A stretch of 19,132 nucleotides of DNA from an uncultured Bacteroidales bacterium (lineage in GTDB: Bacteria > Bacteroidota > Bacteroidia > Bacteroidales > UBA932): positions 1-19,132 of the forward strand of contig CAMOGR010000229.1 of NCBI GenBank assembly GCA_946614205.1, read 5' to 3'. A model generated the notes under the pieces. It worked only from the letters and a program-made list of their open reading frames with translations. It made no database searches and was not told the DNA's origin. The position numbers were made by a program, and so were the translations under genes. Each line of letters begins with the position of its first letter. The stretch's first letter is position 1. Below, piece by piece: positions 1-19,132 of this stretch.

Positions 1-591
1 CCGGCCGTTCCCGAGGAGGCCGGCGCCGTGACCGAGTATTATGCCGACGGCACCGTCCGTGAGAAGTATGTCCGCAAGGACGGCATGCTGCAGGGCCAGT
101 ATCTCCGATACTATCCGTCCGGGGATATGGAAAGTTCTTCGGGCTACAAGGACAACCTGCTGGACGGCATGGACATACGTTATTATGGGTCGGGGAACCG
201 CGTCCGCAGTACGCAGCCTTACAAGGCCGGCCGCCGCGACGGCCCCATGACCGTCTATTACCCCGACGGCATGGTAAAGATGGTTCTCAGCCATTCCGAC
301 GAAGGGACTGCGGGTTCTGTCACCACGTATTATCAGAACGGCAGGAAGATGTCCGAAATGTATCTTCCCCCTGCTGGAGGTGTGATGATAGGCAATATCG
401 TGATGTATTACGACAACGGTGAAGTGTCGGAGAAGTATTCTTTCCGCGGCGGCGAAATAGACGGCCCTTATGAGAGTTATTACCCCGACGGCAGCCTGAG
501 GCGCAAAGGCAGCTATCGCATGGGAGAAATCGTCGGCAGGTGGTATTTCCGCGACCGCAGCGGCAATGAGACCACTTACGACTACGATTAG
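1..591 (+). CDS. MORN/YwqK-repeat protein, 5' end missing
   Basis: The frame is open from base 1; the first usable start in view is a GTG at 28, but the codons before it read on without a stop, so the gene most likely begins outside the window. The visible part is a run of about seven repeats of 23-26 residues, each opening with a Tyr-Tyr-x-(Asp/Ser/Asn)-Gly turn (for example YYADG, YYPSG, YYPDG, YYQNG, YYDNG) and ending in a Gly-rich turn. This is the pattern of MORN-like repeats in YwqK-family proteins, often labelled 'toxin-antitoxin system YwqK family antitoxin'. Those repeats form beta-hairpin sheets and probably mediate binding; no catalytic residues are visible. It ends in TAG and overlaps the HTCS stop on the other strand by 4 nt. 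No toxin partner is visible, so the antitoxin label should not be read as a function. Confidence 0.8.
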   Translation, partial: PAVPEEAGAVTEYYADGTVREKYVRKDGMLQGQYLRYYPSGDMESSSGYKDNLLDGMDIRYYGSGNRVRSTQPYKAGRRDGPMTVYYPDGMVKMVLSHSDEGTAGSVTTYYQNGRKMSEMYLPPAGGVMIGNIVMYYDNGEVSEKYSFRGGEIDGPYESYYPDGSLRRKGSYRMGEIVGRWYFRDRSGNETTYDYD

Positions 592-4605: not shown

Positions 4606-6306
4606 ATGAAAAAGATTCTTTTGCCGCTGTTTCTGGCCTTCCTGTCCCTGCAGGCCATTGCTCAGATTAGCTTTACCCCCAATCCGCAGATGCCCCTTCC
4701 GGACAATGTGTTCTTCTACATGAGCACGGATACCGGCTACGAAGGGCGCTTCACATTCCTGCGTCCGGTGTGGTTCATTTATCCGGACGGGCCCTGCACA
4801 CGCGAGGATGCCGAGGCCCTCGTTGACCGGATGGGCCTCAATGACACGCTCAAAGATTATGTGAGCATGGTTGCGGTGCTGGGGCCGGTAAACGGGAAAT
4901 CCTACGACAAGGCGGCTGATTTCGCCATGTACGAGGCTTTGCTCAACAAGATGCGCGTGTTCACCAATCTCAAGGTGATAGGCATAGGCGAGGGGGCCAC
5001 GTTCGTCAGCGAAGCCATCGCCCCTGTGGCTTCCGAGGTCGCAGGCATAGTCTGTATCGGCGGAAAGGCCGCACGCAAGACGGAGGGCACGTCCACCGTC
5101 CCTGCATATCTTGCCGGAAAAGATGCAGCCAAGGCTGCCGGGGCTTATATCACCCGCAACAAGGCCGTGCCCGTGGAAAAAGGAAAGGACCTGAAGGTCT
5201 ACAAGAATGCCGCCGAGCCGCTGCTCCAGGTAATAGTGAATACGGACAGGAATCCCGACTTGCGGCAGACGATCGCCGATGCGTGGGAACGCCTTCTTTC
5301 AGTCAACTACCGCTGCTCCAACCTTGGCCACACGAGCTATATGGGGGCTTCGCTCGGCCAATACGGCGACTACGAGCTGGAGCCGTATCTGATGTGGGAG
5401 CGCATCGGAACCAGAAGGGTCATGGTGGAAAAAGAACTCTTCAGCTACAATGACAAAAAGGAGAAATACCTGTGGTACGAATACATTCCCTCCTGCCTGG
5501 AGGATGCGCCTGCCGGGTCGGTCCCGCTGGTCATACTGCTCCACGGTCACAACAACGACCCCCGTACGCAGGCGGAGACCAGCGGATTTGTGGAACTGGG
5601 AGCTTCTGAGGGCTTCTTTGTCGCAGAACTGGAGTGGCAGGGGAAGCCGGGCTACGATTACATGGGCGATCACGGCATAGAGGCGACAGTGCGTGAAATC
5701 CTGCGGGAGCATCCGCAGCTCGACCCTTCGCGCGTGTATGCCGAGGGACTTTCTGCAGGAGGGTTCTGCGCAACCGCACTGGGAATCACCAAGAGCCACC
5801 TGTTTGCGGCCGTGGGGGCCCATTCTGGCGGCATTTTCAGCGATGCGCTCAATCTTGGATTTCCGTTCATGAATCCGGTGTCGCTGCGCTCTGCGGCGCT
5901 CCAGAATTCCGGCAAGGTCAGGATGCCGTACTTCAGTATCACCGGCACCGTAGACGATGCCGTGCCCTTCGTGCGTCCCGACCTGCCGCAGGGAGAGATG
6001 ATTTCCGGAGCCTGGAGGCTGTATCAGCAGTATAACGGCCTTCCGGTCAGCGGTCCCACCGACCTGGAAACGTATCCCGTATTCGGCCTGCCGCTACAGG
6101 GGCGCCGCCGCATCGAAACGAACAAGGGACACGCCATGGAGGCAGGCGACATTGCCGATGCCGCCGGACGTCCGGTCATCCGGATCGTCGCGGTGGAAAA
6201 CTTCGGCCACTGGAACTTTGTTCCCGGGGCGCGGCAGATGTGGGAGTTCTTCAAACTTTGGAGAAGGGACCCCCTGACGCTGGAATCACGCTATTCGCTT
6301 GATTAG
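4606..6306 (+). CDS. Secreted CE1/PHB-depolymerase-like esterase with degenerate N-terminal hydrolase-like domain
   Basis: The start chosen is 4606 (566 residues), because it begins directly with a clean signal peptide (MKKILLPLFLAFLSLQAIAQ, about 1-20); the in-frame ATG at 4579 would add nine residues before it. The C-terminal half (about 280-555) is an alpha/beta hydrolase of the feruloyl esterase/PHB-depolymerase/LpqC type: oxyanion-hole LLHGHNND near 311-318, nucleophile elbow GLSAGG with Ser383, acid in GTVDDAVP (Asp450 or Asp451), and His535 in FGHWNF. The N-terminal half (about 45-240) also has an alternating strand/helix pattern and an elbow-like GIGEG at 126-130, but glycine occupies the nucleophile position, so it may be an inactive hydrolase-like or binding domain. 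Expected role: hydrolysis of acyl or feruloyl-type esters in the periplasm or outside the cell. It is divergent from the HTCS and convergent with the susCD operon. The ester substrate is unknown. Confidence 0.85.
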   Translation: MKKILLPLFLAFLSLQAIAQISFTPNPQMPLPDNVFFYMSTDTGYEGRFTFLRPVWFIYPDGPCTREDAEALVDRMGLNDTLKDYVSMVAVLGPVNGKSYDKAADFAMYEALLNKMRVFTNLKVIGIGEGATFVSEAIAPVASEVAGIVCIGGKAARKTEGTSTVPAYLAGKDAAKAAGAYITRNKAVPVEKGKDLKVYKNAAEPLLQVIVNTDRNPDLRQTIADAWERLLSVNYRCSNLGHTSYMGASLGQYGDYELEPYLMWERIGTRRVMVEKELFSYNDKKEKYLWYEYIPSCLEDAPAGSVPLVILLHGHNNDPRTQAETSGFVELGASEGFFVAELEWQGKPGYDYMGDHGIEATVREILREHPQLDPSRVYAEGLSAGGFCATALGITKSHLFAAVGAHSGGIFSDALNLGFPFMNPVSLRSAALQNSGKVRMPYFSITGTVDDAVPFVRPDLPQGEMISGAWRLYQQYNGLPVSGPTDLETYPVFGLPLQGRRRIETNKGHAMEAGDIADAAGRPVIRIVAVENFGHWNFVPGARQMWEFFKLWRRDPLTLESRYSLD

Positions 6307-6327
6307 GATCCCCTCCCGCAGCATGCG

Positions 6328-6346
6328 CCCCTCCTATAGGCAGGGG
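6328..6346. terminator. Weak hairpin between convergent genes
   Basis: CCCCT (6328-6332) pairs with AGGGG (6342-6346), with the small palindrome CCTATAGG in the loop. It lies in the short gap after the esterase stop and overlaps the stop of the last gene of the opposite operon. The 5-bp stem and lack of a T-run on either strand make it a poor intrinsic terminator, but it is the only candidate between the two convergent units. Confidence 0.22.
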
Positions 6347-7425
6347 TAGATGTAGTCCCAGATTAAGTCCATCTCGGCTTGCGTGTCGGACAGCCATGCA
6401 GTGACGGCCACCACTGCGTTCTTCTCGGGGAGGACCAGGATGAACTGTCCGCCTGCCCCGTCGGCGCGGAAGCCTTCCACTTTGTTGCGCCAAGTCTGGA
6501 AACCATAGCCCTGACGCCAGTCGTTCCTGGCGGGATCCAACTTGGCGTCAGCCTCTTCAGGGCTGAGGGTAGCCGGAGCGCAGTCGATGTGACTGGCGCC
6601 CATGTTTTCCACCCATTCGGCGGGAATCAGCTGCTTGCTTCCCCATCTGCCCTTCTGCAGCAGCAGCTGGCCCATCTTGGCCATGTCTTCCGTCTTGAGG
6701 TGCAGGCCCCATCCGCCGAGGCTCACCCCGTTTTCATCTGCATCCCATTCGGGAATGTCGATGCCGAGGGGCTCGAACAGCCTGGGAGTCAGATAGTCGA
6801 GGACGCTCTCGCCGGTGAGCTTGGTCACGATGGCCGACAGCAGGTATGTGCCCAGGGAATTGTAGCAGAAATGGGTGCCGGGTTCATGTACAAACGGATG
6901 GGAGAAGAAGGCGGCGGCGATGTCGGTCCCTTCCTTTACGGAAGTTGTCATTGCCGTGATGTCGAACTGCAGTATGCCAAGGGAAGGGTCGGTGTCGTGG
7001 CCGCCTGCCATCATCAGCAGGTCCTCGACGGTGGCGTTGCATGGATTGTCAGGCCGCACCTTGTCGGGGAAGAACTTGTCCACCCGGTCCTTGAGCGAAA
7101 GCTTTCCGTCTGCGATGACCATTCCTACAGCAGCGGCTGTGAAGGTCTTGGATACCGAGAACATCGTGTGGGGCTGCTCGGGAGCGAACTTGCCGAACCA
7201 TTTCTCGAGCACGACCTTGCCGTCCTTTACCACCATGATGCTGTGGAAGTTCAACAGCTTCATGTAGTCGATCGGTTCGGTAAAGGAAGCCACTATGCTG
7301 TCCTGCATGGCATGGAAGCTGGCTGCGAGTTCCGGTGAAGGTTCAGCCCTCTCAAGGTCCCTGGGAGGCTGTGTGGTGCAGGCTGCAAGCATTATGCAGC
7401 CAAGAAGGATAAGTGTCTTTTTCAT
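6334..7425 (-). CDS. Beta-lactamase-fold serine hydrolase lipoprotein (paralog 2)
   Basis: A 363-residue member of the beta-lactamase/class C-like serine hydrolase family (PF00144 type), which includes esterases, DD-peptidases and amide hydrolases. A lipoprotein signal peptide ends in LAAC (Cys16), so the protein is probably membrane anchored facing the periplasm or cell surface. Catalytic SxxK is S90-V-S-K93 in MFSVSKTFT; the second motif is Y188-N-S in the place of the usual Tyr-x-Asn; the third region near the C terminus reads RADGAGGQ, replacing HxG/KTG. It starts 3 nt after the stop of its close paralog and is the last gene of the susCD operon. The start is the ATG in front of the signal peptide. 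The family does not predict a substrate; beta-lactam resistance is unlikely given the SusCD context. A role in cleaving an ester or amide on the imported compound is inferred. Confidence 0.9.
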   Translation of the reverse strand: MKKTLILLGCIMLAACTTQPPRDLERAEPSPELAASFHAMQDSIVASFTEPIDYMKLLNFHSIMVVKDGKVVLEKWFGKFAPEQPHTMFSVSKTFTAAAVGMVIADGKLSLKDRVDKFFPDKVRPDNPCNATVEDLLMMAGGHDTDPSLGILQFDITAMTTSVKEGTDIAAAFFSHPFVHEPGTHFCYNSLGTYLLSAIVTKLTGESVLDYLTPRLFEPLGIDIPEWDADENGVSLGGWGLHLKTEDMAKMGQLLLQKGRWGSKQLIPAEWVENMGASHIDCAPATLSPEEADAKLDPARNDWRQGYGFQTWRNKVEGFRADGAGGQFILVLPEKNAVVAVTAWLSDTQAEMDLIWDYIYPCL

Positions 7426-7428
7426 TGT

Positions 7429-8541
7429 TTACAATGCCGGATAAATGAAGTCCCAGAAGAGCCAGAGCTCCATCTGGTGGTTTTGCAATTCTGCGCGGGC
7501 TGCGATGACGGCGTCCTTCTCGGGAAGGACGATGATCATCTGGCCCCAGGCTCCGTCGGCACGGAAGCCGCCTACGGTGTTGCGCCAGGTCTGGTAGCCG
7601 TATCCTGCGACCCAGTCGTTGCGGGAAATGGGGTAGAAGGGCGGCTGGTCTATCTGCTCGGCGGTCAGGCCGTTGGGATAGTTGTCGATGTGCTTTGCCG
7701 TCTGCCTCTCAATCCATCCGGCGGAAATGAGCTGCCTGCCGTTCCACCGGCCTTTCTGCAGCATCAGCTGGCCGGCCTTCGCCATGTCTTCGAGGCGCAG
7801 GTGCAGGCCCCATCCGCCGGTGCACACGCCGGCCTCGTCCATGTCCCACTCGGGGGTCTCGATTCCCATGTACTTGAAGACTCGCTCGTCGAGCAGGTCG
7901 CGTATGTTCTTGCCTTCAACCTTCTGTACGATGGCCGAAAGAGCGTAGGTACACAGGGAATTGTAGGTGAAGTACGTACCGGGTTCGTGTACGAAGGGAT
8001 GGTTCAAGAAGGCTGCGGCAAGGTCAGCGCCCGGCTTGAGCTTGATTTCCATCGAAGTGGTATCGTATTTCTCCATCGTGTCCCATGTGGGGTCTGTCTC
8101 GTGGCCGCACTGCATGGTGAGCAGGTCCTCGACCCTGAGTTTCCTGAGGTTCTCCGAAGGCTCGGCGGGCAGTTTGTCGGAGAAGAAGTCCGCGACTTTG
8201 TCCTCTACCGTGAGCAGACCGTCATCAACTGCGAGTCCCACTGCAAGAGCAGTGAAAGTCTTGCTGGCGGAGAAGACGTGCTGAGGTCTGTCGGCAGGCC
8301 ATTCGGGATCCATGTCCTCTTCAAGGACGACCTTTCCTCCCTTCAGGACCATGATGTTGTGCATGAATACCTGCTTCATGGGATTGGGGTCGGATGCGGA
8401 CCTGGCTACGGTGTCCTTCCAGGCGGAAAATGCCTTGAGAAGTTCTTCAGACGCCTCTGCGCGAGGAAGGTCCTTGGGTGCTTGGGTACAAGCAATGGCG
8501 GCAGATACTGCCGCCATTGCAAGTATGTTATAAAACTTCAT
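7429..8541 (-). CDS. Beta-lactamase-fold serine hydrolase lipoprotein (paralog 1)
   Basis: A 370-residue protein, by eye roughly half identical to the following gene along its whole length, so the two arose by tandem duplication. The lipoprotein signal peptide ends in AIAC (Cys18). Catalytic SxxK is S91-A-S-K94 in FSASKTFT; the Tyr motif is Y193-N-S in FTYNSLCTY; the C-terminal box is RADGAWGQ. Shared blocks include HPFVHEPGT, IPEW/TPEW, GGWGLHL and LQKGRW. Divergence lies mainly just before SxxK and in the stretch after the Gly-Arg-Trp block, around 285-310, regions likely to shape the active-site rim. It starts 1 nt after the stop of the upstream lipoprotein gene, so translation is probably coupled. 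It is probably periplasmic or surface-exposed. Substrate unknown; esterase, lactonase or amidase are all compatible with the fold. Confidence 0.9.
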   Translation of the reverse strand: MKFYNILAMAAVSAAIACTQAPKDLPRAEASEELLKAFSAWKDTVARSASDPNPMKQVFMHNIMVLKGGKVVLEEDMDPEWPADRPQHVFSASKTFTALAVGLAVDDGLLTVEDKVADFFSDKLPAEPSENLRKLRVEDLLTMQCGHETDPTWDTMEKYDTTSMEIKLKPGADLAAAFLNHPFVHEPGTYFTYNSLCTYALSAIVQKVEGKNIRDLLDERVFKYMGIETPEWDMDEAGVCTGGWGLHLRLEDMAKAGQLMLQKGRWNGRQLISAGWIERQTAKHIDNYPNGLTAEQIDQPPFYPISRNDWVAGYGYQTWRNTVGGFRADGAWGQMIIVLPEKDAVIAARAELQNHQMELWLFWDFIYPAL

Positions 8542-8542
8542 A

Positions 8543-9829
8543 TCAGAAATAATAACCCATGAGGTTCCATATGCTCAGGCCGTTGGCCGCCATTCCGCTC
8601 AGAAGGGGTTCGGGCAGGCTGTAGCTCATGTTGGTTGGGGCGAGCAGCGCCGCGACGACTCCCGAGGCTTTCTGCCCGTTCATCACCATGGCAAATCCCT
8701 CTTCGAAAGGAATCTCATACCTGACCCCCTGCCATACATAGTAGCAGGTGGGAGCGATGGCGGATTTGGTTGATGCCGAGCCGCTCAGGTATTCATCATA
8801 CGATACGGGCATGAATGCGACGCCGCCGGTCGAATCTCCGTCTTTCTGGAGAGGCCCAAGGATAGGATTGGGGGTGTCGGTAATGCCTGTGAAAGAAATG
8901 AACTCGTCGCCGGCAGTGTAATTCATCTTGACGGTAAACTCGTACATTCCCTGGATGACGGGGGATTCCACCGAGTAGAAGTGGAGCATCATGAAGGACA
9001 TGTCGCCGGAGCTTGCCGGAGTTGCGGGAACGAGGTCGTCCTTCTTTTCGCAGTACAGGAAGTCCACGCTTGGGCTCTCCGTGAAGTTGAACTTGTCGGT
9101 GAAGCTGAAGTTGAGGCGTCCGGGGAAGTTGCTGCTTACGGAAACGCCGCCGTGAATCATGATGTAAGTGCCGTAGGAAGGTTCGAAGAACCAGCAACCG
9201 GCATTTGCAGAACCGTAGACTGCCGTCCCGGCATCGCCTGTGGCGGCAATGGCGTAATCACCGGTTCCATCGCCCACTACCGAAACTTCAGCCAGCTGGG
9301 CGGAAGTTTCCTTGTCATAAATCCTGTAAACGTGTGCGGCAAGGCCGTTTGCTTTGGCTGCAGGTTCTTCGGTGTAGTAGTAGTTCGTGGGAATGTCATA
9401 TTCGAGCACGCCTTTTGCGCGAATCTTCACTATCGTGCCTTCCTCGTCCTTCAGGCGGACGGTTCCGGAGATGCTGTAGTCCTTCACTCCGTCCAGGGTG
9501 ACGGTGACCATTCCGTTATTGATGTCGCCGTCGGCTTTGTCGCTCTTGAAATGTCCGTTGAAGAAGCCGATCCCCTCTCCCACTGTATATGAACCGGGAG
9601 TAAGGAAGGGTATGACGGAATAGAAGTTAAGGTCGAGTTTGCCATTTTCCGAAGTGGCGGAAACAGGGAGTGTCAGGACGTCGCTGCCTGATTCCTGTCC
9701 TCTGGCGATGCTGGAATAAGTAGCGTCGATGACAGTCCAGCCTGTGGTTTCCGGCTGTCCGTCACCCGTGCAGGATGCGAGTAAGCAGCTTGCGGCAGCA
9801 GCCAGGGCTAAATATAGTAACTTTTTCAT
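8543..9829 (-). CDS. Unrecognised SusE/F-position lipoprotein with internal repeat
   Basis: A 428-residue lipoprotein, with signal peptide ending in LASC (Cys20). I do not recognise a family. Composition is beta-rich, with many Tyr, Phe, Ser and Thr and no visible catalytic motif. Two segments look alike: LDLNFYSVIPFLTPGSYTV near 65-83 and LHFYSVESPVIQGMYEFTV near 282-300, each the start of a strand-rich block, suggesting two copies of a domain of about 100-130 residues with a linking region (about 145-260) between them. It lies directly after susD, where SusE/SusF-like or other surface glycan-binding lipoproteins normally sit, so a ligand-binding role at the outer surface is a reasonable inference. 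AGGA stands just upstream of the ATG as a possible ribosome-binding site. It is 18 nt from susD and 1 nt from the next hydrolase. Confidence 0.82.
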   Translation of the reverse strand: MKKLLYLALAAAASCLLASCTGDGQPETTGWTVIDATYSSIARGQESGSDVLTLPVSATSENGKLDLNFYSVIPFLTPGSYTVGEGIGFFNGHFKSDKADGDINNGMVTVTLDGVKDYSISGTVRLKDEEGTIVKIRAKGVLEYDIPTNYYYTEEPAAKANGLAAHVYRIYDKETSAQLAEVSVVGDGTGDYAIAATGDAGTAVYGSANAGCWFFEPSYGTYIMIHGGVSVSSNFPGRLNFSFTDKFNFTESPSVDFLYCEKKDDLVPATPASSGDMSFMMLHFYSVESPVIQGMYEFTVKMNYTAGDEFISFTGITDTPNPILGPLQKDGDSTGGVAFMPVSYDEYLSGSASTKSAIAPTCYYVWQGVRYEIPFEEGFAMVMNGQKASGVVAALLAPTNMSYSLPEPLLSGMAANGLSIWNLMGYYF

Positions 9830-9847
9830 ATCCTGTTGTTTTCAAGA

Positions 9848-11455
9848 TTAATAACCGGGATTCTGCTGATTTGCCATGGCCTTGTTGGTCTGGAGTTCAG
9901 TCAGAGGGAAAGGAAGGAGGAGGTCACGCTCCTGGAAACCTGCGGCAGGGTCGGGATTGTCAACATACTGTACGATTCCGCCGGGCATGAGGGTTGGCAG
10001 TTTCTTGCCCTTGTCGGCGCATTCCTTGGCAAGGTCGCCCCAGCGCTTGAGGTCCTGGAAACGTACGGCCTCGAAGCAGAGCTCGAGCATGCGCTCGGTC
10101 TTGACGTCCTCGAAGGTGACTCCGCTCTTTGCGGGCAGGCCTGCGCGGGCGCGAACTTCGTTTACATAAGCGTCAGCGCTTCCGCCGCCACCGCGCACAG
10201 CGGCTTCAGCAGCCATGAGGAGTACATCCGCGTAGCGCATGCAGGGAGTGTTGGTGAGGTTTCCGGTCCATGCGTTCCATATCTCGTCTTCCTGGCTCAT
10301 GAGCCACTTGAAGCGGAATACGCCCTCGTTGCCTCTCCAGCTGGAGCCGCCTGTGTAAACGACACCGAATGAAGGGAGGTCGTCGATTACGAGGCAGGAA
10401 GCGAGGCGCCTGTAGCTGCTGGGACCTTCCTCCTTTACGAATGCATCGTAAATCTTCCTGGTAGGGTTCATGCCGCCCCATCCCATCAGGTCGACGAACG
10501 GGAAGGTGTTGGTGCCGTCGGTCGTGAAGCAGTAGGGGAAAGGCCAGTTGTCCTGGAGTCCGTACCAGCCGTCTTGCACGGCGCTTGCGGCAGCGTCGGG
10601 ATTGCGGAGGTTGGCGGTGTCCCACTTGCGGACGTTCTCGAAGATGTACTCGCGGCAGCCGTTAGCCTGCATGTGATACAGGTCGTTCATGTCGGGAATG
10701 AGGCCGTACAGACCGGAGCTGATGACCTTGTCGAATGCGTTCTTGGCATCGGTGAACTTCTCCTCGGTAAGATAGACTTTGCCGAGTACTGCGAGAGCGG
10801 CTTCCTTCGTAATGCGTGTGCCGGTGTCCTTGTCGTCGATGCCTGCCTTGGAAGGGAGCTTGCCGGAGTCGATGGCCTCGGTGAGGTCGGTCTCGACGAA
10901 CTGCCAGAGCTCGCTGATTTCGGTCTTGCCGATGTTGTATTCTTCCGGTGCAAGGACATGGTCTACCTTGGGGACGGCTCCCCACAGGGTAATGAGTTCA
11001 TAGTAGCACAGGGCCCTGAAGAACTTGGCTTCAGCTATGCAGCGGGCCTTGACCTCGCTCTCGGGCTCGAACTTGTCAAGCACCATGTTGGCGAAATAGA
11101 TGTTCCTGTAGAGTCCGTTGTAAACGGCTTCCACCCAACTGTTCGACGGGGTGACGGTGCTGGATGAGAATTCCGCCTGGTTGGCGCTGGAGTCGACCAT
11201 GTCGTCCCCCATGTTGTTCAGCATCCAGAACATGTTTACGTAGCAAGGGCCGATGGTGTAGCCGCATCCCGACCAGTTGGCGCGCCATGCGTGGTAGACT
11301 GCGGCGGTCGCGGCAAGGCAGTCGTCATCGGTTATGTAGGAGTTGTCCTCGCTCTGGACACCCTGCTGTGGGATGTCAAGCAGTTTCTCGCTGCAGGCGC
11401 TCAGGATTGCAGCCGAACTTGCAAGGAGGGCGAATAACTTGAATATCTTTTTCAT
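9848..11455 (-). CDS. susD: SusD/RagB-family surface lipoprotein
   Basis: A 535-residue RagB/SusD-family outer-membrane lipoprotein that lids the partner SusC transporter and binds the substrate. A signal peptide ends in LSAC (Cys21). The N-terminal part carries the family's helical TPR-like pattern (for example VYNGLYRNIYFANMVLD, then AKFFRALCYYELITLWG). The C-terminal hallmarks are present: RYADVLLMAAEAA, the block from VRARAGLP to ELCFEAVRFQDLKRWG, and the ending LLPFPLTELQ...NQQNPGY. Length is normal and nothing is missing. It begins 12 nt after the susC stop, with an AAGGA-like element just upstream. An aromatic-rich stretch around 290-330 (DGWYGLQDNWPFPYCF region) is a plausible ligand platform, but no specificity can be read from it. 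The symbol is a family name, not an ortholog claim for the starch system. Confidence 0.96.
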   Translation of the reverse strand: MKKIFKLFALLASSAAILSACSEKLLDIPQQGVQSEDNSYITDDDCLAATAAVYHAWRANWSGCGYTIGPCYVNMFWMLNNMGDDMVDSSANQAEFSSSTVTPSNSWVEAVYNGLYRNIYFANMVLDKFEPESEVKARCIAEAKFFRALCYYELITLWGAVPKVDHVLAPEEYNIGKTEISELWQFVETDLTEAIDSGKLPSKAGIDDKDTGTRITKEAALAVLGKVYLTEEKFTDAKNAFDKVISSGLYGLIPDMNDLYHMQANGCREYIFENVRKWDTANLRNPDAAASAVQDGWYGLQDNWPFPYCFTTDGTNTFPFVDLMGWGGMNPTRKIYDAFVKEEGPSSYRRLASCLVIDDLPSFGVVYTGGSSWRGNEGVFRFKWLMSQEDEIWNAWTGNLTNTPCMRYADVLLMAAEAAVRGGGGSADAYVNEVRARAGLPAKSGVTFEDVKTERMLELCFEAVRFQDLKRWGDLAKECADKGKKLPTLMPGGIVQYVDNPDPAAGFQERDLLLPFPLTELQTNKAMANQQNPGY

Positions 11456-11467
11456 ACTTCCTTCGAA

Positions 11468-14400
11468 TTAGAATGTTACGGTAACACCGAAGAGCATCTT
11501 CTTGGTGGTAGGATAGGCACCGAAGTCGAGGCCTATGCCGGAAACGGCGTCGGTAGATATTTCAGGGTCGAGGCCCGGATACTTGGTGAAAAGGAAGAAG
11601 TTGTCCAGGGATGCATACAGGCGGAGCTTCTCGATGAAGATCTTGCGGGTGAAGTTCTGGGGAAGCGTGTATCCGAGCTGGATCTGGCGGATGCGGAAAT
11701 AGGAACCGTCAAATACGAATGCGTCGGAGAGCATGTAGCGCTGGATGTTTTCCGAACGGGACTGGGGACGTGCGAACCTGGTGTTGGTGTTGGTTGGAGT
11801 CCACCTCTGGTCGTACAGGGACTTGAGGTTGTAGAAGAGCAAGGCGTTGTTGTAGCACATGAACACGTCGTTGCCCTCGCTGCCGTTGGCGAATACCGTG
11901 AAGTCTATGCCCTTCCAGCCAAGCTGGAGCGTGAGGCCGTAGGTGAAGTCGGGAAGCGGCTTGCCTATCATGGTCTTGTCGCTTTCGTCGATGACACCCT
12001 CGGGGTCACCGGAGAGGTTCTTGAATACTGGATCGCCGTTCTCATCGAGCTTGTCGAGCTGGAAGCCGCGGAAGTACCACACGGGATATCCTTCTTCGAA
12101 GGCGGCCAGCCTGCCGACTCCGTTGATCTGTACGGTGGGGCTCATGATACGGCTGTCGCTCACGTTGGGGTTGAGCCAGGTGACCTTGTTCTTGAGTGTG
12201 GCGATGTTGCCGCTGACAGAGTAGAAAAAGTCGCCGATCTGGTCTTTCCAGCTGAGGTCGATTTCTATACCCTCGTTGCGGATGTTGCCTCCGTTGACGG
12301 GAGCCGCGGTGTTGCCGGCCTCGAAGGGAACCTTGATGCCCTGGATGATGAGGTCCTTGGTGTCCTTGCGGAACCAGTCGGCAGAGAGGGCCAGGCGGTC
12401 TGAGAAGAAGCGGGCGTCGAGACCGAAGTCAAGCTGCTCGGAAGTCTCCCACTTGAGGTCGGGATTGTACAGCTGGCCGGGACGGAACATCTTGTTGTAG
12501 GAGATGCCGTTGTTGGTGAAGCTGTATCCTACCGCATCGGAAATGATGGAGTTGGAATAGGTGTAGCCGGAGAGGTTGCTGGTAGAGCCGTTCTGGCCCC
12601 AGCTGGCGCGCAGCTTGAGGAAAGATACTGTCGGCTTGATGCCCTTGAAGAACTCTTCGTTGGAAATGACCCAGCCTGCGGATGCGGAGGGGAAGAAGCC
12701 CCAGCGGTTGCCGGCAGGGAGGACGGAAAGGTCTGCCGCGTCAGCGCGAAGGGTGGCCTCGAGGAGGTACTTCTCCGCGTAATTGTAATTCAGACGGCCG
12801 AAGTAGGAGAGTTTGGTGTTCACCAGCTCGTAGCCGTCGGTCTCATGGATTGCAGTGCCGGAAGGATAGCTGATGTCGGCGAACAGGGGGTCGTCCTTTG
12901 CGGCGGAGCTGATGCCGACCATCTCATAAAGCCTTGAATTGCGGCTGAATGACATACCTGCCATCACTCCGAAGTTGTTCTTGCCGAGGGAGAAGTTGTA
13001 GTTGGCGAAGTTCTCCCACTGATAGTAAGTGGTCGAGGTGCTGGTCCTGGATACGGACAGGCCTTCATCGGAGGTGAAGTAGTTGGATCCTCCGTAGTAA
13101 TTGTGGGCGAAATAGTAGGCGTTGTCCCCGTAGACCTTGTATCCCAGGCGGGACGTCAGGACGAGACCCTTGACGGGGGTGAAGTTCGCAAACAGCGTAC
13201 CGGACAGGCGGTTGCCGTAGTTCTTGCGCTCTGCGCTCCTGACCGCGACCATGGGGTGAAGGAGACCTTCGGTAGAGTAGTAGTTGCCGTTGGCGTCGGT
13301 GAATAGATTGTAGACACCCTGGTTGAGTATGGTCTGCATGTTCGTAGGCAGATTGTCAGGAGAATAGGTGTCTGCAAGATAGGGCGGCTGGTACAATGCC
13401 TGCGCAAAGATGTTGGGGTTGCGCACGCCGCTTCCGTTCAGGGGAACGCCGTCCACGAGCGGTGATGCCTGGTAGTAAGCATAATCCGCGGTGGCGCCCA
13501 CCTTGAGCCACGGCTTGACCTGGTAGTCTGCATTGAGAGCTACGCTGTACCTTTTGTAGGTGTCCCTGCTGAGTCGTACCACGCCATCTTCGTCATGTGC
13601 GCCGAGGGAGATGTAGAATGAACCCCTGTCGTTGGCGCCCTGGACGTTCACGGTGTGCTTCTTAGTGACGCCCTTGCCGAATGCCACGTCGAGCCAGTCG
13701 GTGGAAGTCTGGCCGTCCCAAACGCCCTGGTCGATGAGCAGCAGGAGGTTGTCGTCGGTGAATGAGGGGTTGGACTCCTGGTTCTGCTTGATGTACTCAA
13801 GTGCGTTGATGACCTTGGGCTTTACGGCCAGGCTGCTGATATGGTACTGGAAGTCGTAGCTGACGGCTCCTTCGCCCTTGGCACCCCTCTTGGTGGTGAT
13901 GAGGACGACACCGTTGCCTGCCTGGGCTCCGTAGATTGCTGCCGATGCGGCATCCTTGAGGACCTCCATGCTCTCGATGGAGTTGGGGTCGATGCTGGAG
14001 ATGTCGTCCATCAGAAGGCCGTCCACGACGTACAGGGGGTCGGAGGTTCCGTTGGATGCGATACCGCGGATGCGGATCGTAGGAACGGCACCGGGCTGTG
14101 CGGAAGTCGTGATGAGGGTGACGCCGGGGGTCTTTCCCTGGAGAGCCTGCTCGAGGTTGGCGATTGCACGGCCCTGGATTTCTTCGGAGCCTACGGATGA
14201 GATGGCTCCCGTGAGGTTGGCCTTGCGCTGGACGCCATAGCCGACGACGACGACTTCTTCAAGAAGTTGGTTGTCGTCCTCGAGGACGACGTTCATCTGC
14301 GGAGCTGCAGGGAGTACGGCGTCCTTGTAGCCGATGCTGGAAAAAGTAAGGCTTGCGCCCTGGGGGACGCTGATCGAGAAGTGGCCTTCGGCGTTGGTGA

Positions 14401-14572
14401 CTGTTCCGTTGGCGGGTGCGCCGCTTTGGACGACACCGGCTCCGATTACAGGCACTCCTGCCTTGTCGGTCACAGTACCGGAGACCCGGATCTGCTGGGC
14501 GAAGGCCATGGGCCCTATGGCAAGCAGTGTTGCAGCCAGCAGAATCTTGATTAGATGAATGGTTTTTTTCAT
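11468..14572 (-). CDS. susC: SusC/RagA-family TonB-dependent outer-membrane transporter
   Basis: A 1034-residue TonB-linked outer-membrane importer and first gene of the operon. Order: signal peptide about 1-26 ending AMAFAQ-like (PMAFAQ); carboxypeptidase-regulatory-like domain about 28-98 (VSGTVTDKAGVPVIGAGV); TonB-box segment EEVVVVGYG at 105-113; plug domain about 115-230 with the SusC signature LYVVDGLLMDDI and MEVLKDAASAAIYGAQAGNG; then a 22-strand type barrel to the C-terminal aromatic ending GVTVTF. It imports the ligand captured by SusD, using TonB energy. There is no N-terminal STN domain and no sigma/anti-sigma pair nearby, which fits control by the HTCS rather than by an ECF sigma system. 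A TATTTTTG box lies 42 nt upstream of the start. Substrate not predictable from sequence. Confidence 0.97.
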   Translation of the reverse strand: MKKTIHLIKILLAATLLAIGPMAFAQQIRVSGTVTDKAGVPVIGAGVVQSGAPANGTVTNAEGHFSISVPQGASLTFSSIGYKDAVLPAAPQMNVVLEDDNQLLEEVVVVGYGVQRKANLTGAISSVGSEEIQGRAIANLEQALQGKTPGVTLITTSAQPGAVPTIRIRGIASNGTSDPLYVVDGLLMDDISSIDPNSIESMEVLKDAASAAIYGAQAGNGVVLITTKRGAKGEGAVSYDFQYHISSLAVKPKVINALEYIKQNQESNPSFTDDNLLLLIDQGVWDGQTSTDWLDVAFGKGVTKKHTVNVQGANDRGSFYISLGAHDEDGVVRLSRDTYKRYSVALNADYQVKPWLKVGATADYAYYQASPLVDGVPLNGSGVRNPNIFAQALYQPPYLADTYSPDNLPTNMQTILNQGVYNLFTDANGNYYSTEGLLHPMVAVRSAERKNYGNRLSGTLFANFTPVKGLVLTSRLGYKVYGDNAYYFAHNYYGGSNYFTSDEGLSVSRTSTSTTYYQWENFANYNFSLGKNNFGVMAGMSFSRNSRLYEMVGISSAAKDDPLFADISYPSGTAIHETDGYELVNTKLSYFGRLNYNYAEKYLLEATLRADAADLSVLPAGNRWGFFPSASAGWVISNEEFFKGIKPTVSFLKLRASWGQNGSTSNLSGYTYSNSIISDAVGYSFTNNGISYNKMFRPGQLYNPDLKWETSEQLDFGLDARFFSDRLALSADWFRKDTKDLIIQGIKVPFEAGNTAAPVNGGNIRNEGIEIDLSWKDQIGDFFYSVSGNIATLKNKVTWLNPNVSDSRIMSPTVQINGVGRLAAFEEGYPVWYFRGFQLDKLDENGDPVFKNLSGDPEGVIDESDKTMIGKPLPDFTYGLTLQLGWKGIDFTVFANGSEGNDVFMCYNNALLFYNLKSLYDQRWTPTNTNTRFARPQSRSENIQRYMLSDAFVFDGSYFRIRQIQLGYTLPQNFTRKIFIEKLRLYASLDNFFLFTKYPGLDPEISTDAVSGIGLDFGAYPTTKKMLFGVTVTF

Positions 14573-14604
14573 ACTGTATGGGTTGGTTATTGAGTGTTAT
14601 CGGT

Positions 14605-14645
14605 TTTGCTTATGCAAAAATAGCAAACCCTCGATACAATTTGCT
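14605..14645. repeat. Three TTTGCT hexamers in alternating orientation
   Basis: TTTGCT occurs on the plus strand at 14605-14610, on the minus strand at 14622-14627, and on the plus strand again at 14640-14645, so start positions are 17 and 18 bp apart. The first and third copies extend to TTTGCTTA. The middle copy abuts the susC -7 box. This could be an operator for a dimeric or tandem-binding regulator such as the AraC-type domain of the HTCS; chance is not excluded in AT-rich DNA. Confidence 0.4.
14615..14622 (-). promoter_or_regulatory. Putative -7 box of the susC operon
   Basis: The minus strand reads TATTTTTG, a full match to TAnnTTTG. It would start transcription near 14610 and give a leader of roughly 38 nt before the susC ATG. 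A TTG exists upstream on the same strand (14637-14639), but the spacer of 14 bp is short compared with the usual 19-21 bp, as often seen at promoters needing an activator. Confidence 0.5.
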
Positions 14646-14732
14646 TACCTTTTTGTATTTTTACTTATCCGTGCGTTCACATCGGGGCAAACAAATGAAC
14701 AAACAAATAATAATAAATACGCGGGGAATGTT

Positions 14733-14740
14733 TTTATTTG
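14733..14740 (+). promoter_or_regulatory. Possible degenerate -7 box of the phosphatase operon
   Basis: TTTATTTG, the same one-mismatch form of TAnnTTTG seen before the esterase at 4606, lies 21 nt before the ATG at 14762. No -33 element was found. Confidence 0.28.
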
Positions 14741-14761
14741 CATCAAGTAATACCACCGATT

Positions 14762-16120
14762 ATGAAACGCCTGCCGATTATCCTGTTTTTGCTTGCTGTC
14801 CTGTTGCCGCTTGGCGTCATGGGACAGGCCGACACCCTTACCCTCGCCCAGCTCCGCTCCGCCGTCCAGGCCGATCCGGGCCGAGCCGGGGGCAATCACT
14901 ACAATTACCAGTTCGCTCCTTACAGCGCCGCTCCCGCTCCCAGGGGATATGAGGCCGTATATATCAGCCATTACGGCAGGCATGGTTCCCGCCATGTCAC
15001 CAACAGCAAGAAGTACGACGACCTGGCGAGGATATTCAAAGAGGCTGCGTCCGCCGGAGTCCTTACGCCCGAAGGGGAGAGGCTCTGCGCCGACTACATG
15101 GCCATATACCCCAAGCTTCAGTACCATAACGGCGACCTCACGCTCAAGGGCCAGTGGCAGCACCGCGAGCTTGCCCGCCGCATGGTGAAAGCGTATCCTT
15201 CGGTATTCAGGAAGAAAGTGGCGGTCGACGCCCGTTCCACGGTGTCGCACCGCGCCATGATAAGCATGATGTCATTCTGCGACGAGCTCAGGCAGCTGCG
15301 CCCCAAGGCGACCATCAGCTACGCAGCCAACTACAGCGACCTCCACATCACGGCCCTGAATCCCCCGGGTGCCGGTGAAGAAGCTGCCGGGAAGGATTTT
15401 GCACGCATGTTTTCGAGCGAAACGATGCGGGCCGAGTTCGCACGTGCAGCTACCGCCGATTCACATTCCACGGAGGCGACTCTCGGACGCTTCTTTACGA
15501 GCCTGGAGCCGCTGGAAGGGTGCGGAACTCCCGCCCAGATGCTTTCTGACCTTCTTGAGGTCGCGGGCATTCTGCAGTGCATGGACTTCGACGCCGACCT
15601 GTCTGGTTATTTCACTTCGGACGAACTGTTCGACGGCTGGGCGTACAGCAATCTCTTCGCAGCTCTCATGTTCCGCGAGAACGCTTATTCCGCCGGTTTC
15701 CTGACGGCCCGCGCATATACTCTGCTGGACGACATCATCTCCCTTGCCGACAGCGACATGGCTTCCGGAGACATCGACGTGCGCCTCCGTTTCGGCCACG
15801 ATACGGTTGTGGCTCCACTCATGGGGCTGCTGGGAGTCCCCGGCTGGGAAGCGCTCGGAGCGGACATGACCAGCTGGAAATACCATTTCCAGAGCTGGAA
15901 CGTACCAATGGCATCCAATGCCCAGTTCATTTTCTACCGCAACAGGAAGGACCCTTCCGACATCCTCGTGCGCCTGATGTACAATGAGAAAGACCAGGCT
16001 CTCCCGCTTGCAGACCAGAGCCTCGCTCCGTACTACCGCTGGAGCGACTTCAAGTCTTATTATGCTCCCGTGATTGAAAACGCGCGCGAGCTCTGCGAGA
16101 GACTGCGCAGCCAAGAATAA
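14762..16120 (+). CDS. Histidine acid phosphatase (phytase/MINPP-like), secreted
   Basis: The start at 14762 (452 residues) gives a direct signal peptide (MKRLPIILFLLAVLLPLGVM, cleavage near GQA); an ATG at 14738 would add eight residues in front. The protein belongs to the histidine-type acid phosphatase branch. The phosphate-binding signature is SHYGRHGSR, with R73-H74-G75-S76-R77 and nucleophile His74; a further active-site arginine lies in DARST (R158), followed by SHR; the distal proton-donor motif is FGHDT (H346-D347). The family removes phosphate from phytate, inositol phosphates or sugar phosphates in the periplasm. Gut Bacteroides MINPP enzymes are of this general type but carry HAE, while HD as here is typical of bacterial phytase/glucose-1-phosphatase relatives. 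It is first in a rightward operon with an esterase and a GH3 enzyme, divergent from susC, so its substrate may be linked to the same nutrient. Confidence 0.9.
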   Translation: MKRLPIILFLLAVLLPLGVMGQADTLTLAQLRSAVQADPGRAGGNHYNYQFAPYSAAPAPRGYEAVYISHYGRHGSRHVTNSKKYDDLARIFKEAASAGVLTPEGERLCADYMAIYPKLQYHNGDLTLKGQWQHRELARRMVKAYPSVFRKKVAVDARSTVSHRAMISMMSFCDELRQLRPKATISYAANYSDLHITALNPPGAGEEAAGKDFARMFSSETMRAEFARAATADSHSTEATLGRFFTSLEPLEGCGTPAQMLSDLLEVAGILQCMDFDADLSGYFTSDELFDGWAYSNLFAALMFRENAYSAGFLTARAYTLLDDIISLADSDMASGDIDVRLRFGHDTVVAPLMGLLGVPGWEALGADMTSWKYHFQSWNVPMASNAQFIFYRNRKDPSDILVRLMYNEKDQALPLADQSLAPYYRWSDFKSYYAPVIENARELCERLRSQE

Positions 16121-16141
16121 CATTAAAATATTATAGCCTTT

Positions 16142-17317
16142 ATGAAACGTTTATTCCTTTTTGTTCTGGCAGCATGTGCCACGCTTCTGGTCTCTTGTGC
16201 GAATGACCCCAATCCCGTCGTAAAAGTGGACGGAGGCTCCGTCCAGGGTATACTGGAGGATGATGTGCTCATCTACAAGGGCATTCCCTTCGCCGCTCCG
16301 CCCGTAGGCGAACTGCGCGGCAAGCTCCTTCAGCCTGTGCAGCCCTGGGAGGGCGTACTGGAGGCCGACGCTTTCCGCGCTGCTGCCGCCCAGGCCGTCA
16401 AGACCGCTGACGACCCCATCTGGTATAAGGAATTCTATGCTGACGGACAGCCCGAGTACAGCGAAGACTGCATGTACCTGAATGTCTGGGCTCCCGCCGG
16501 AGCAGTGGGCAACGCCGGCTCCAAGGCTCCCGTAGCCGTGTGGATTCACGGCGGCGGCTTTCAGCAGGGCTACAGTTTCGAGAAGGAAATGGACGGAATG
16601 GAGTGGGCCAGGCGCGGAGTTATCCTCGTCACCATCCCTTACCGCCTCGGAGAAATCGGATTCCCTTCGAAGGACTGCCTGCTCGGTCTTCAGGATCAGG
16701 TGTTCGCCCTCAAATGGGTGAGGGACAATATCTCTGCATTTGGCGGAGACCCTTCGAACGTGACGATTTTCGGCCAGAGCGCCGGAGCCATAAGCTGCAA
16801 GTACCTGCTCACTATGCCTGAGGCTGAAGACCTTTTTGCAAGGGCCATTCTGCAGTCCGGCGGCGGCGTCAACGACATGTCCTTCCACCCTTCGCTCCCC
16901 GCCGGGACAGGCGGTGAAATCTTCCCCGCAAAGGTTGAGGAAGGCTGCTTTGACACCAAGCCCATAATGATGGGATGGGTGGCCCAGGACCCCGATTTCC
17001 TCGGGAAGCCTACAGTTGCCGAATTTGCCGACATCCTCGTGGCCCGTTCCGCCGACAGGCCTGTGTACGTATATGCCTTCAACCGCAATCTGCCCGGAGA
17101 GGCGGAGGGAGAGCCCGACTTCGGTGCGTTCCACTCCTTCGAGCTCTGGTACACTTTCGGCACCCTGGACCGCTGCTGGCGTCCTTTCACCGCGGCAGAC
17201 CACGAACTGAGCCGCCGCATGCTCGACTGCTGGACCTCGTTCGCCCGCACCGGCAACCCTGGCTGGAAAGCCTATGACAGCACCGATAAATATGTAGAAA
17301 CTTTTGATGTTGAGTAA
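16142..17317 (+). CDS. Compact type-B carboxylesterase lipoprotein
   Basis: A 391-residue carboxylesterase (COesterase/para-nitrobenzyl esterase family). A lipoprotein signal peptide ends in LVSC (Cys19). Family blocks in order: YKGIPFAAPPVGELR (45-59), SEDCMYLNVWAP (107-118), oxyanion loop WIHGGGF (134-140), nucleophile elbow FGQSAGA with Ser213, and the catalytic-His block GAFHSFELWYTFGTLDRCWR with His331. The family is usually near 500 residues. Here the stretch between the QSGGG after the nucleophile and the acid region (GWVAQDPD near 278-285), and the part after it, are much shorter, without any frameshift in view, so it looks like a stable compact form. The acid residue is probably Asp283 or Asp285 rather than the common Glu. 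It lies 21 nt after the phosphatase and 3 nt before the GH3 gene; role: removal of acyl or aryl esters, substrate unknown. Confidence 0.9.
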   Translation: MKRLFLFVLAACATLLVSCANDPNPVVKVDGGSVQGILEDDVLIYKGIPFAAPPVGELRGKLLQPVQPWEGVLEADAFRAAAAQAVKTADDPIWYKEFYADGQPEYSEDCMYLNVWAPAGAVGNAGSKAPVAVWIHGGGFQQGYSFEKEMDGMEWARRGVILVTIPYRLGEIGFPSKDCLLGLQDQVFALKWVRDNISAFGGDPSNVTIFGQSAGAISCKYLLTMPEAEDLFARAILQSGGGVNDMSFHPSLPAGTGGEIFPAKVEEGCFDTKPIMMGWVAQDPDFLGKPTVAEFADILVARSADRPVYVYAFNRNLPGEAEGEPDFGAFHSFELWYTFGTLDRCWRPFTAADHELSRRMLDCWTSFARTGNPGWKAYDSTDKYVETFDVE

Positions 17318-17320
17318 CTT

Positions 17321-19132
17321 ATGACTATACTTGAACTTCTTGCCGCAGCACTTGTTGCTGCCGCACCAGCGCAATGCGCAAAGGCGCCGTCACTGGAAAA
17401 GCAGGTCGACAAGATTGTTTCCGGCATGACGCTCGATCAGAAAATCGGCCAGATGATTCAGCTGGAAAGCGCCCAGCTCGCTTACGTCAATCCCGAGCTG
17501 GAGTTCGTTACCTTGATGAACTACGGGCCGGAGAAACTCTCCGAAATCATCGCCCGCGCAGGCCTGCAGGACCGTTACGACGCAGCCTCGATGTTCTCAG
17601 CACTCAAGCAGGGGAACTTCGACACCATGTATCCCTTCTATCTTCTGAGCCAGGAGCTTTGCGCGCTTGAAGGCTATTCGCTGGACCCTGCAAAACTCAA
17701 GACGGTCCTCGGAGAGCATAAGGTGGGCTCCATAATCAACATGCTCGGTGTGGAAGCCTCGGAACTCCCGCTTTGGCGCAAGACCATCGCCGGTCTGGAA
17801 GCCGCAGCCCTTGAGTACACCGGTGTGCCGATTATCTACGGACTCGACCAGGTACACGGCCCCACGTATATCTACGGCGGCACAATGTTTCCCCAGCAGC
17901 TGGGAATGGCGGCCACCTTCAACCCGGAACTCGTGCATGAGCTGGGAGAGATGAATGCCTACGAGACCCGTGCCGGCGGCGTGCGCTGGTGCTTCGGTCC
18001 CAGCATGGACCTTGCCCTCAAGCCCACCTGGTCCCGTTTCTACGAGACCTGGGGAGAGGACCCGTACCTCACCGGGGTCATGGCGACGTCTTACGCCCAG
18101 GGCCTGCTCGGTCCCGATCCCGACCACATTGATGAATATCATGTCATCCCGTGCCTCAAGCACTACGTGGGATACGGTACGCCCGACAGCGGCATCGACC
18201 GCACGCCTGCCACCATCACCCTTCAGGACCTGCGAGAGAAGCATTTCGAGCCTTTCCGCAAGGCTCTGCTCGCCGGAATTCCGTCCGTCATGACCAATTC
18301 CTCAGTGGTCAACGGCGTGCCCGGAGTCTGCAACAAGATGCTGCTTACCGACTGGCTCAAGGATGAGCTGCAGTGGGACGGAGTGGCCGTTTCCGACTGG
18401 GCCGACGTGCAGGAGCTCAGCCGTCTTATCAAGATTTCTCCGGGCCCCAAGGAAAGCATAGCGATGGCGGTGAACGCCGGCATAGACATGATAATGGTGC
18501 CCTCTGACCTTTCCTACGGCCCTCTGCTCCATGAGCTTGTGGCGGAAGGCAAAGTGAGCATGGAGCGCATTGACGACGCCGTGCGCCGTATCATACGCAT
18601 GAAGGTGCGTGCGGGCCTCTTCGACAAGAAGCAGAAGAAGGTCGAATATCCCAAGTTCGGCAGTCCCGAATTCGCCGCCAAGGCCCTGCAGGCTGCCGTC
18701 GAGAGCGAAGTGCTGCTCAAGAACGAGGGAGGCCTTCTGCCTCTTGCCCAGGGTACGAAAATCCTTCTCTGCGGCCCCAATGCCGATACCATGCGCGGCC
18801 TTTCCGGCGGCTGGACCTATTCCTGGCAGGGGAGCAAGGTGGAGCATTTCAGCGAGCCGTACAATACCATCCGCGAGGCTCTGGAGGCCCGATTCGGAGC
18901 GGACAACGTCATTTATGAGCCCGGTGTGGAATATGACTTCGGAAGCGACTGGTACAATGAAAAGGAGCCTTGCATCGACAAGGCCGTAGCGCGTGCGGCC
19001 GGGGCCGACTGCATCATTGCATGCGTAGGCGAGTGCTCTTACGCCGAAATGCCCGGCAGCATCAAGGACGCAAACCTGTCGCCTGCGCAGAAGGAACTCG
19101 TACGCGCCCTTGCAGCCACCGGAAAGCCTCTT
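17321..19132 (+). CDS. Glycoside hydrolase family 3 beta-glycosidase, 3' end outside window
   Basis: The frame from the ATG at 17321 stays open to the last base (604 codons seen), so the C terminus is missing. An in-frame stop, which is also the stop of the upstream esterase, lies 3 nt before this ATG and fixes the start region. The N terminus (MTILELLAAALVAAAPAQCA) is hydrophobic and signal-like but lacks a basic n-region. GH3 features: VDKIVSGMTLDQKIGQM near 29-46, VGSIIN near 135-140, IIYGLDQVHG, TMFPQQLGMAATF, the FYETWGEDPYL block, substrate-binding K280-H281 in CLKHYVGYG, and nucleophile Asp359 in VAVSDWADV. The second alpha/beta domain starts near 455 (ESEVLLKNEGGLLPL). Members are exo-acting, typically beta-glucosidases or beta-xylosidases, releasing single sugars in the periplasm. 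It is third in the operon, so it may act on the de-esterified or dephosphorylated glycoside. Exact sugar specificity cannot be called. Confidence 0.93.
   Translation, partial: MTILELLAAALVAAAPAQCAKAPSLEKQVDKIVSGMTLDQKIGQMIQLESAQLAYVNPELEFVTLMNYGPEKLSEIIARAGLQDRYDAASMFSALKQGNFDTMYPFYLLSQELCALEGYSLDPAKLKTVLGEHKVGSIINMLGVEASELPLWRKTIAGLEAAALEYTGVPIIYGLDQVHGPTYIYGGTMFPQQLGMAATFNPELVHELGEMNAYETRAGGVRWCFGPSMDLALKPTWSRFYETWGEDPYLTGVMATSYAQGLLGPDPDHIDEYHVIPCLKHYVGYGTPDSGIDRTPATITLQDLREKHFEPFRKALLAGIPSVMTNSSVVNGVPGVCNKMLLTDWLKDELQWDGVAVSDWADVQELSRLIKISPGPKESIAMAVNAGIDMIMVPSDLSYGPLLHELVAEGKVSMERIDDAVRRIIRMKVRAGLFDKKQKKVEYPKFGSPEFAAKALQAAVESEVLLKNEGGLLPLAQGTKILLCGPNADTMRGLSGGWTYSWQGSKVEHFSEPYNTIREALEARFGADNVIYEPGVEYDFGSDWYNEKEPCIDKAVARAAGADCIIACVGECSYAEMPGSIKDANLSPAQKELVRALAATGKPL

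Follow-up and report, generated by a model that had tools for sequence, protein, structure and literature searches.

A SusCD locus of an uncultured Bacteroidales bacterium with a mixture of predicted esterases, a phosphatase and a GH3 enzyme, several of them fused in relatives

We analyzed a SusCD locus on contig CAMOGR010000229.1 (assembly GCA_946614205.1) of an uncultured Bacteroidales bacterium of the UBA932 lineage; the window, meaning the whole stretch of DNA analyzed, comprises 19,132 nucleotides. The susC gene for a TonB-dependent transporter (11468..14572, minus strand; TIGR04056, 829 bits, above cut-off) lies 12 bases from susD (9848..11455, minus strand; SusD_RagB, 113.5 bits), and this adjacency, together with both family scores, marks the region as a SusCD-type nutrient acquisition locus. 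The minus-strand run continues with a gene for a third lipoprotein (8543..9829) and with genes for two beta-lactamase-fold serine hydrolases, BL2 (7429..8541) and BL1 (6334..7425), the successive gaps being 18, 1 and 3 bases. A plus-strand run diverges from susC over an intergenic region of 189 bases (14573..14761) and encodes, with gaps of 21 and 3 bases, a histidine acid phosphatase of branch 2 (HAP; 14762..16120), a compact, putative type-B carboxylesterase of 391 aa (COE; 16142..17317) and a beta-glucosidase-type enzyme of glycoside hydrolase (GH) family 3 (GH3; 17321..19132), which is cut by the window edge. Convergent with BL1, with 27 bases between them, lies the gene for an exported tandem esterase of 566 aa (4606..6306, plus strand); the genes from this esterase to GH3 are referred to below as the island. 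Divergent from the esterase, across 67 bases, is a gene for a hybrid two-component system regulator (HTCS; 588..4538, minus strand) with the Pfam domains Reg_prop, Y_Y_Y, HisKA, HATPase_c, Response_reg and HTH_18. All genes named in an earlier description made from the letters of this DNA (the sequence-only reading) were found as open frames lying about where it had placed them. It had also noted that no endo-acting GH or lyase accompanies susCD, and a Pfam scan of the window genes likewise revealed none.

Each enzyme activity given here is predicted from family membership, and the motifs named for HAP, COE, the tandem esterase, BL1/BL2 and GH3 are presumably catalytic. The tandem esterase had been described as a CE1-like hydrolase; the esterase assignment holds, and the protein is now recast as a two-module, polyhydroxybutyrate (PHB)-depolymerase-like serine esterase with its triad in the C-terminal module. 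It matches Pfam Esterase_PHB (27.9 bits, cut-off 23), misses the threshold of the scl-PHA depolymerase type 1 model NF050058 (81.6 bits, cut-off 150) and carries the motifs GLSAGG, GTVDDA and FGHWNF. The full triad is found in the C-terminal module and the N-terminal part has a GxGxGA motif only; since BLASTP found no significant similarity between the two halves, it is by inference that we call the N-terminal part a dead copy. The G.SAG elbow was present in 120/120 homologs, the best 120 of 1161. BL1 and BL2 (PF00144, 123.9 and 102.7 bits) are 53% identical and both carry an SxxK motif (SVSK and SASK, respectively), BL1 being nearest to Lsa45 and a class C-related serine hydrolase. The top NCBIfam match of both was 3-succinylated cholic acid synthase (NF045925), with about 330 of 498 model positions covered; at 234.4 and 200.7 bits the pair scored below the cut-off of 800, and a bile-acid acyltransferase role was dropped for that reason.

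HAP matches PF00328 (54.3 bits, cut-off 23.6) and has the motifs RHGSR and RFGHD at residues 73 and 343, the combination of family match, RHG and HD that defines branch 2 of the histidine phosphatases. It shares the RHGxR and HD motifs and Sec export with MINPP/phytase-type HAPs, but it is nearer to PDB entry 7r5y (187.5 bits) than to the MINPP chains, which come next (104.5 bits), and it is recurrently fused to esterases. COE matches PF00135 (270.7 bits) and has the motifs GQSAG, AQDPDF and AFHSFE; its Ser and His align with those of pNB esterase, about 130 residues of the middle are absent, and AQDPDF supplies the probable acid, an Asp assigned by hand. It resembles the BD-FAE family, described in PMC8165983 as alpha/beta hydrolases borne on polysaccharide utilization loci (PULs), in that PF20434 matches both COE and a domain fused to the tandem esterase in related proteins; unlike BD-FAE, COE matches PF00135 far more strongly than PF20434 (43 bits). 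GH3 contains both family domains (PF00933 and PF01915) and the motifs VSDWAD and GECSYAE, of which SDW and GE..YAE align with BoGH3B through an ortholog in genome G537, so that a nucleophile Asp and an acid/base Glu can be assigned as in beta-glucosidases. That ortholog (804 aa; 74% identical to the window GH3) matches BoGH3B with 831.5 bits over residues 111-802 and differs from it by an unmatched stretch near the N-terminus (residues ~51-110). By eye, lipoprotein-type signals are present in SusD, the third protein, BL1, BL2 and COE, and Sec-type signals in HAP, the tandem esterase and GH3. HAP genes in general are abundant in the genus, occurring in 311/400 sampled genomes at E <= 1e-20, often several in each.

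The unusual part of the island is a network of natural gene fusions. HAP and COE form one polypeptide in G001, G002 and G620 (821, 821 and 814 residues) and in G537 (a 612-residue piece); these fusions lack the COE signal peptide, whereas the window COE is a separate gene with its own lipoprotein-type signal. We sorted 275 listed homologs by BLAST against references; they were drawn from at most ~8000 scored candidates with lengths of 0.55 to 1.75 times the query, and they include the best 120 of 527 for HAP/COE and the best 120 of 1161 for the tandem esterase. The length range leaves out HAP-alone proteins shorter than ~452 aa and tandem esterase fusions longer than ~990 aa. Among the 54 HAP-containing homologs listed, 29 were HAP-COE, 21 HAP alone, 3 HAP-tandem esterase and 1 HAP-GH3; the remaining classes were COE alone (66), the lipoprotein (35) and those of the tandem esterase, which stood alone in 101, was followed by a BD-FAE-like domain in 9 and preceded by one in 1, and was preceded by a metallo-beta-lactamase (MBL)-fold domain in 8 and followed by one in 1. 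P0269 (595 aa), counted among the eight MBL-esterase rows, is a short and doubtful case. The HAP-tandem esterase protein P0071 (1014 aa) is full length, its esterase part being 68% identical to that of the window; P0072 ends early in the esterase and P0074 retains 68 esterase residues. In the HAP-GH3 protein P0079, the GH3 part is 66% identical to the BoGH3B-like enzyme of G537, while the other GH3 of G402 is 27% identical.

In a HAP tree the three esterase fusions fall together with two single HAPs in a supported group, and the GH3 fusion lies in a distant supported group with the HAP of G523. Because the esterase and GH3 fusions occupy separate groups, HAP fusions arose more than once. HAP-COE rows fall into two groups, with the single HAP P0076 nested inside one, in a sample picked by hand of 8/29 HAP-COE clusters and 9/21 single HAPs. 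HAP-COE may thus have formed or split more than once, and the window HAP and COE may be an unfused survivor or the product of a split. We regard the repeated fusion of HAP to three enzyme families of one island as the strongest sign of a common task. The shared purpose proposed in the sequence-only reading is accordingly backed by natural fusions of HAP with COE, the tandem esterase and GH3. As a separate observation, fusions of the tandem esterase to MBL-fold and to BD-FAE-like hydrolases occur in both orders in each case (L130:272-2905; P0246, P0228, P0247); G373 is among the genomes with an MBL fusion.

To see how far the island extends to relatives, we compared its gene order among 400 sampled genomes of the same genus. 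SusC at least 69% identical to that of the window was found in G001, G002, G537, G620 and G523, with a fragment in G464; so few genomes in this sample indicate that the island is patchy. G001 (locus L001) repeats the full gene order, with HAP and COE as a single gene. The divergence of SusC and HAP is kept in 5/5 informative loci (G001, G002, G620, G537 and G523), counting loci whose contig spans the region and leaving out G464 as uninformative; the HAP of G523 is 41-43% identical and unfused. BL2-BL1 followed by the convergent tandem esterase recurs in G001, G002, G537 and G071. In G620 the third lipoprotein and a C26 amidase stand between BL1 and the tandem esterase, and in G523 the third lipoprotein and BL1 adjoin the tandem esterase, much as in G620. 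G620 is the sole relative in which the island is seen whole: GH3 is followed by a 107-aa open reading frame without family and then by Rnf/Nqr subunits, and at the other edge the tandem esterase comes directly after a GltA-like flavoprotein gene. No endo-GH or lyase lies within this island, and in this one genome none follows GH3, where its presence would have spoken against the sequence-only reading.

Three details of these relatives may be recorded. The tandem esterase of G002 (L002:4500-6078) is split between two reading frames, and ~38 residues of the match are lost at the break, owing either to a frameshift or to faulty assembly. The Peptidase_C26 gene of the G620 island (gamma-glutamyl hydrolase-like; L075:7347-8078) overlaps BL1, another lies near the tandem esterase in G001 (L001:14727-15770), and the window has none. 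The BL2-BL1-esterase block of G071 (L120:5416-13249) is 97.8% identical to that of G001 over 3966 bases, is preceded by a CBM48-type esterase and is flanked by two direct copies (88.7%) of one 1.2-kb segment; it has the appearance of a cassette that was exchanged recently.

Neither Pfam nor NCBIfam assigns the third lipoprotein to a family, and it is taken as a SusE-like surface binder by its position. Including itself, 35 homologs were listed, and a search of the genome collection returned three contigs, all from Bacteroidales metagenome-assembled genomes with RUG names, of which two are true relatives (75% and 73%) and one is a short weak match; from these names we read a rumen origin of the relatives. 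In a family-wide sample the lipoprotein was found in 3/299 genomes, only G002 strongly, and HAP-COE in 3/388 genomes, including G046, which matched the COE part only. A SusD search gave 7/101 at E <= 1e-80.

A linkage of the two operons with the HTCS had also been proposed. The divergence of SusC and HAP described above agrees with it in all five informative relatives, but its regulatory half failed: the HTCS is absent beside the tandem esterase in 4/4 informative genomes (G001, G002, G620 and G071; G537 being uninformative), and no match to the window HTCS was found anywhere in G001, G002 or G620 at E <= 1e-100. The best matches elsewhere (39-42%; G391:C45, G525:C37, G066:C1 and G071:C13) are not the HTCS genes that adjoin the tandem esterase in the sibling loci described next; those are 31-36% identical to the window HTCS over most of their own length, or 41% over a piece in G504. 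Membership of the HTCS in the island is unsupported by conservation. Overall, the sequence-only reading is supported in part.

The tandem esterase is tied to SusC beyond the island itself. Among 77 SusC places listed at E <= 1e-250, the tandem esterase lies within 15 kb in 11/17 places where SusC is at least 50% identical, with a largest gap of 5.9 kb, and in 1/60 places where identity is lower (p 2e-8 by Fisher's test, without correction for relatedness). The remaining 6/17 places have no listed tandem esterase on the same contig; the second G002 esterase piece, whose contig has no listed SusC, was omitted from the count. The tandem esterase itself occurs in 69/400 genomes at E <= 1e-40. In a group of sibling loci, SusC (55-57%) adjoins the tandem esterase and an HTCS; those of G451, G576, G391 and G366 also have SusD (40-42%) and one or two MBL-fold proteins, with no GH among the neighbors scanned (not every open reading frame was scanned against Pfam); contig ends truncate those of G485, G504 and G061. 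In G066 (SusC 53%) the order is SusC-SusD-BL-esterase, with an HTCS. Elsewhere, in two genomes (L134:8434-16114 and L138:3539-12724), a related esterase has as neighbors a rhamnosidase of GH106 and a GH5 that includes a List_Bact_rpt domain, perhaps reflecting a rhamnose-containing ester target.

Taken together, our best explanation, to which we give about an even chance, is that through SusCD the island takes up and trims beta-glucosides that are already short, acylated and probably phosphorylated. The ligand would be captured at the surface by SusD, perhaps also by the third lipoprotein, and imported by SusC; because no surface endo-enzyme is present, it should pass SusC unchanged. BL1, BL2, the tandem esterase and COE would then strip the acyl groups, HAP would remove phosphate and GH3 would free beta-linked glucose. 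The hydrolases would thus share one substrate pathway, most trimming probably being periplasmic and the ligand small. More broadly, and with considerable doubt, the island could be the best-equipped member of a SusCD family that feeds on small ester-linked molecules rather than polysaccharides: here a phosphorylated, multiply acylated beta-glucoside, in the siblings an acyl ester on which the tandem esterase and MBL-fold proteins act, with the HAP fusions acting as single-polypeptide processors.

Several observations weigh against the import of such glucosides. In G523 neither COE nor GH3 follows HAP on the 7.3-kb contig, G071 keeps BL2-BL1-esterase with no SusCD, HAP, COE or GH3 over the 19.9 kb examined, and G620 is the one genome that shows where the island ends. 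G525 and G402 show another arrangement, in which SusC, SusD, a different GH3, HAP and an M13 peptidase form a single run; in G525 an HTCS, one BL, the tandem esterase and a separate COE are also nearby. Of the three HAP-esterase clusters one is complete, the HAP-GH3 fusion is known from one listed cluster, and HAP is the one gene that suggests phosphate on the ligand. PULs of at most 6 proteins are common (19/29 of those predicted in Dysgonomonas mossii, according to PMC8040265), so the missing endo-GH is unremarkable by itself. Distant tandem esterases adjoin GH5 and GH106 (G490, G399) or GH115 (G069), and one in G352 lies with AMP-binding and L-rhamnose isomerase genes. The neighborhood of the G066 operon includes a GH9 gene that scores 47.7 bits (cut-off 27.7), a PF00756 esterase of the CBM48 type and two GH3 genes. 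Peptide substrates were considered and rejected, as the M13 peptidase gene after HAP (G525, G402 and G452) and the genes for FtsX-type proteins (G525 and G452) presumably belong to the chromosomal flank.

Since the sibling locus of G066 has a GH9 near its operon, cell-wall oligosaccharides may be the target. The island could be an accessory plant cell-wall locus, a satellite PUL that imports and trims oligosaccharides with feruloyl or acetyl groups after endo-enzymes encoded elsewhere have released them from xylan, xyloglucan or some other polymer; this explanation has a real chance, if one clearly short of even. The nearest relative of its GH3 is BoGH3B, an enzyme of xyloglucan origin, and CBM48-type PF00756 esterases stand beside related genes in both G071 and G066. 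The tandem esterase is fused to BD-FAE-like domains in 10 listed clusters, PMC8165983 attributes both feruloyl and acetyl esterase activity to BD-FAE itself, and xylan PULs with esterases are described in PMC8040265. On the other hand, neither the window nor the G620 island has a xylanase-, arabinofuranosidase- or xylosidase-type gene, and a cell-wall role leaves the phosphatase and the HAP fusions unexplained.

The phosphatase could instead point to phosphate scavenging, in the manner of the Flavobacterium Pus clusters, with phosphate as the main product and the esterases and GH3 opening access to it. According to PMC8115612, those clusters place a SusCD-like transporter beside phosphomonoesterases and phosphodiesterases and respond to phosphate depletion, and after 7r5y the nearest solved structures to HAP are MINPP-type phytases. 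The likeness extends to a SusCD-like transporter beside a phosphomonoesterase, but the island is dominated by esterases: one phosphatase stands against four esterases and GH3, no phosphodiesterase family occurs among the window genes or in the G620 island, and the HTCS of the window and of sibling loci fits carbon-source sensing better. We consider this explanation unlikely.

Beta-lactamase-fold enzymes that act on D-amino esters exist, FmtA being one. BL1 and BL2 might by analogy remove D-alanyl esters from a teichoic-acid-like polymer of Gram-positive neighbors, with HAP taking phosphate and GH3 glucose; some other HAPs of the genus carry fused calcineurin-like phosphoesterase domains. The island is without a phosphodiesterase, however, and COE together with the BD-FAE-like and CBM48-type partners points to acyl or aryl esters, so that a teichoic-acid-like target appears very improbable. 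The calcineurin-like fusions carry MetallophosN/C domains (L082:13797-16739, L084:10968-13841 and L086:10035-12947; three proteins scanned).

The locus belongs to a known kind, the SusCD nutrient acquisition locus; what is new is its hydrolase mixture and fusion network. It resembles PUL17 of D. mossii, as presented in PMC8040265, in having SusCD, an HTCS, lipoproteins and several exported esterases including a two-domain one. PUL17 has xylanases and many exo-GHs, whereas the island has one GH3, a phosphatase and two beta-lactamase-fold hydrolases, and the endo-acting GH or lyase that is common, though not obligatory, in PULs is lacking from both the window and the G620 island. In the open-licence literature, with subscription papers mostly outside the search, we recognized neither a HAP-carboxylesterase fusion nor a SusCD locus of such content. 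Should the target prove to be a single ester-rich, phosphorylated glycoside, the reach of SusCD import in rumen Bacteroidales would extend beyond polysaccharides to phospho-conjugates or acylated plant metabolites of small size, and the phosphatase-esterase fusions would offer direct handles on the substrate. Should it be cell-wall oligosaccharides and nothing more, the island would be a satellite PUL of compact form whose phosphatase lacks an explanation. The presence of several esterase families would also be of interest to feed and lignocellulose work.

Regulatory scans added little. A comparison of the susC/HAP intergenic region with the esterase promoter gave no shared motif longer than 9 bases in the window, and no clear block was visible across six loci. 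Rfam and tRNA scans of the window gave nothing and its repeats were unremarkable; there were 9 promoter-like sites (shuffled sequences, 5.9 +/- 2.3) and 12 terminator-like ones (shuffled sequences, 16.0 +/- 3.8), counts to which we give no weight. A gene for a MORN_2-repeat protein (1-591), truncated where the window begins, overlaps the end of the HTCS gene by 4 bases on the other strand and shows no evident connection with the island.

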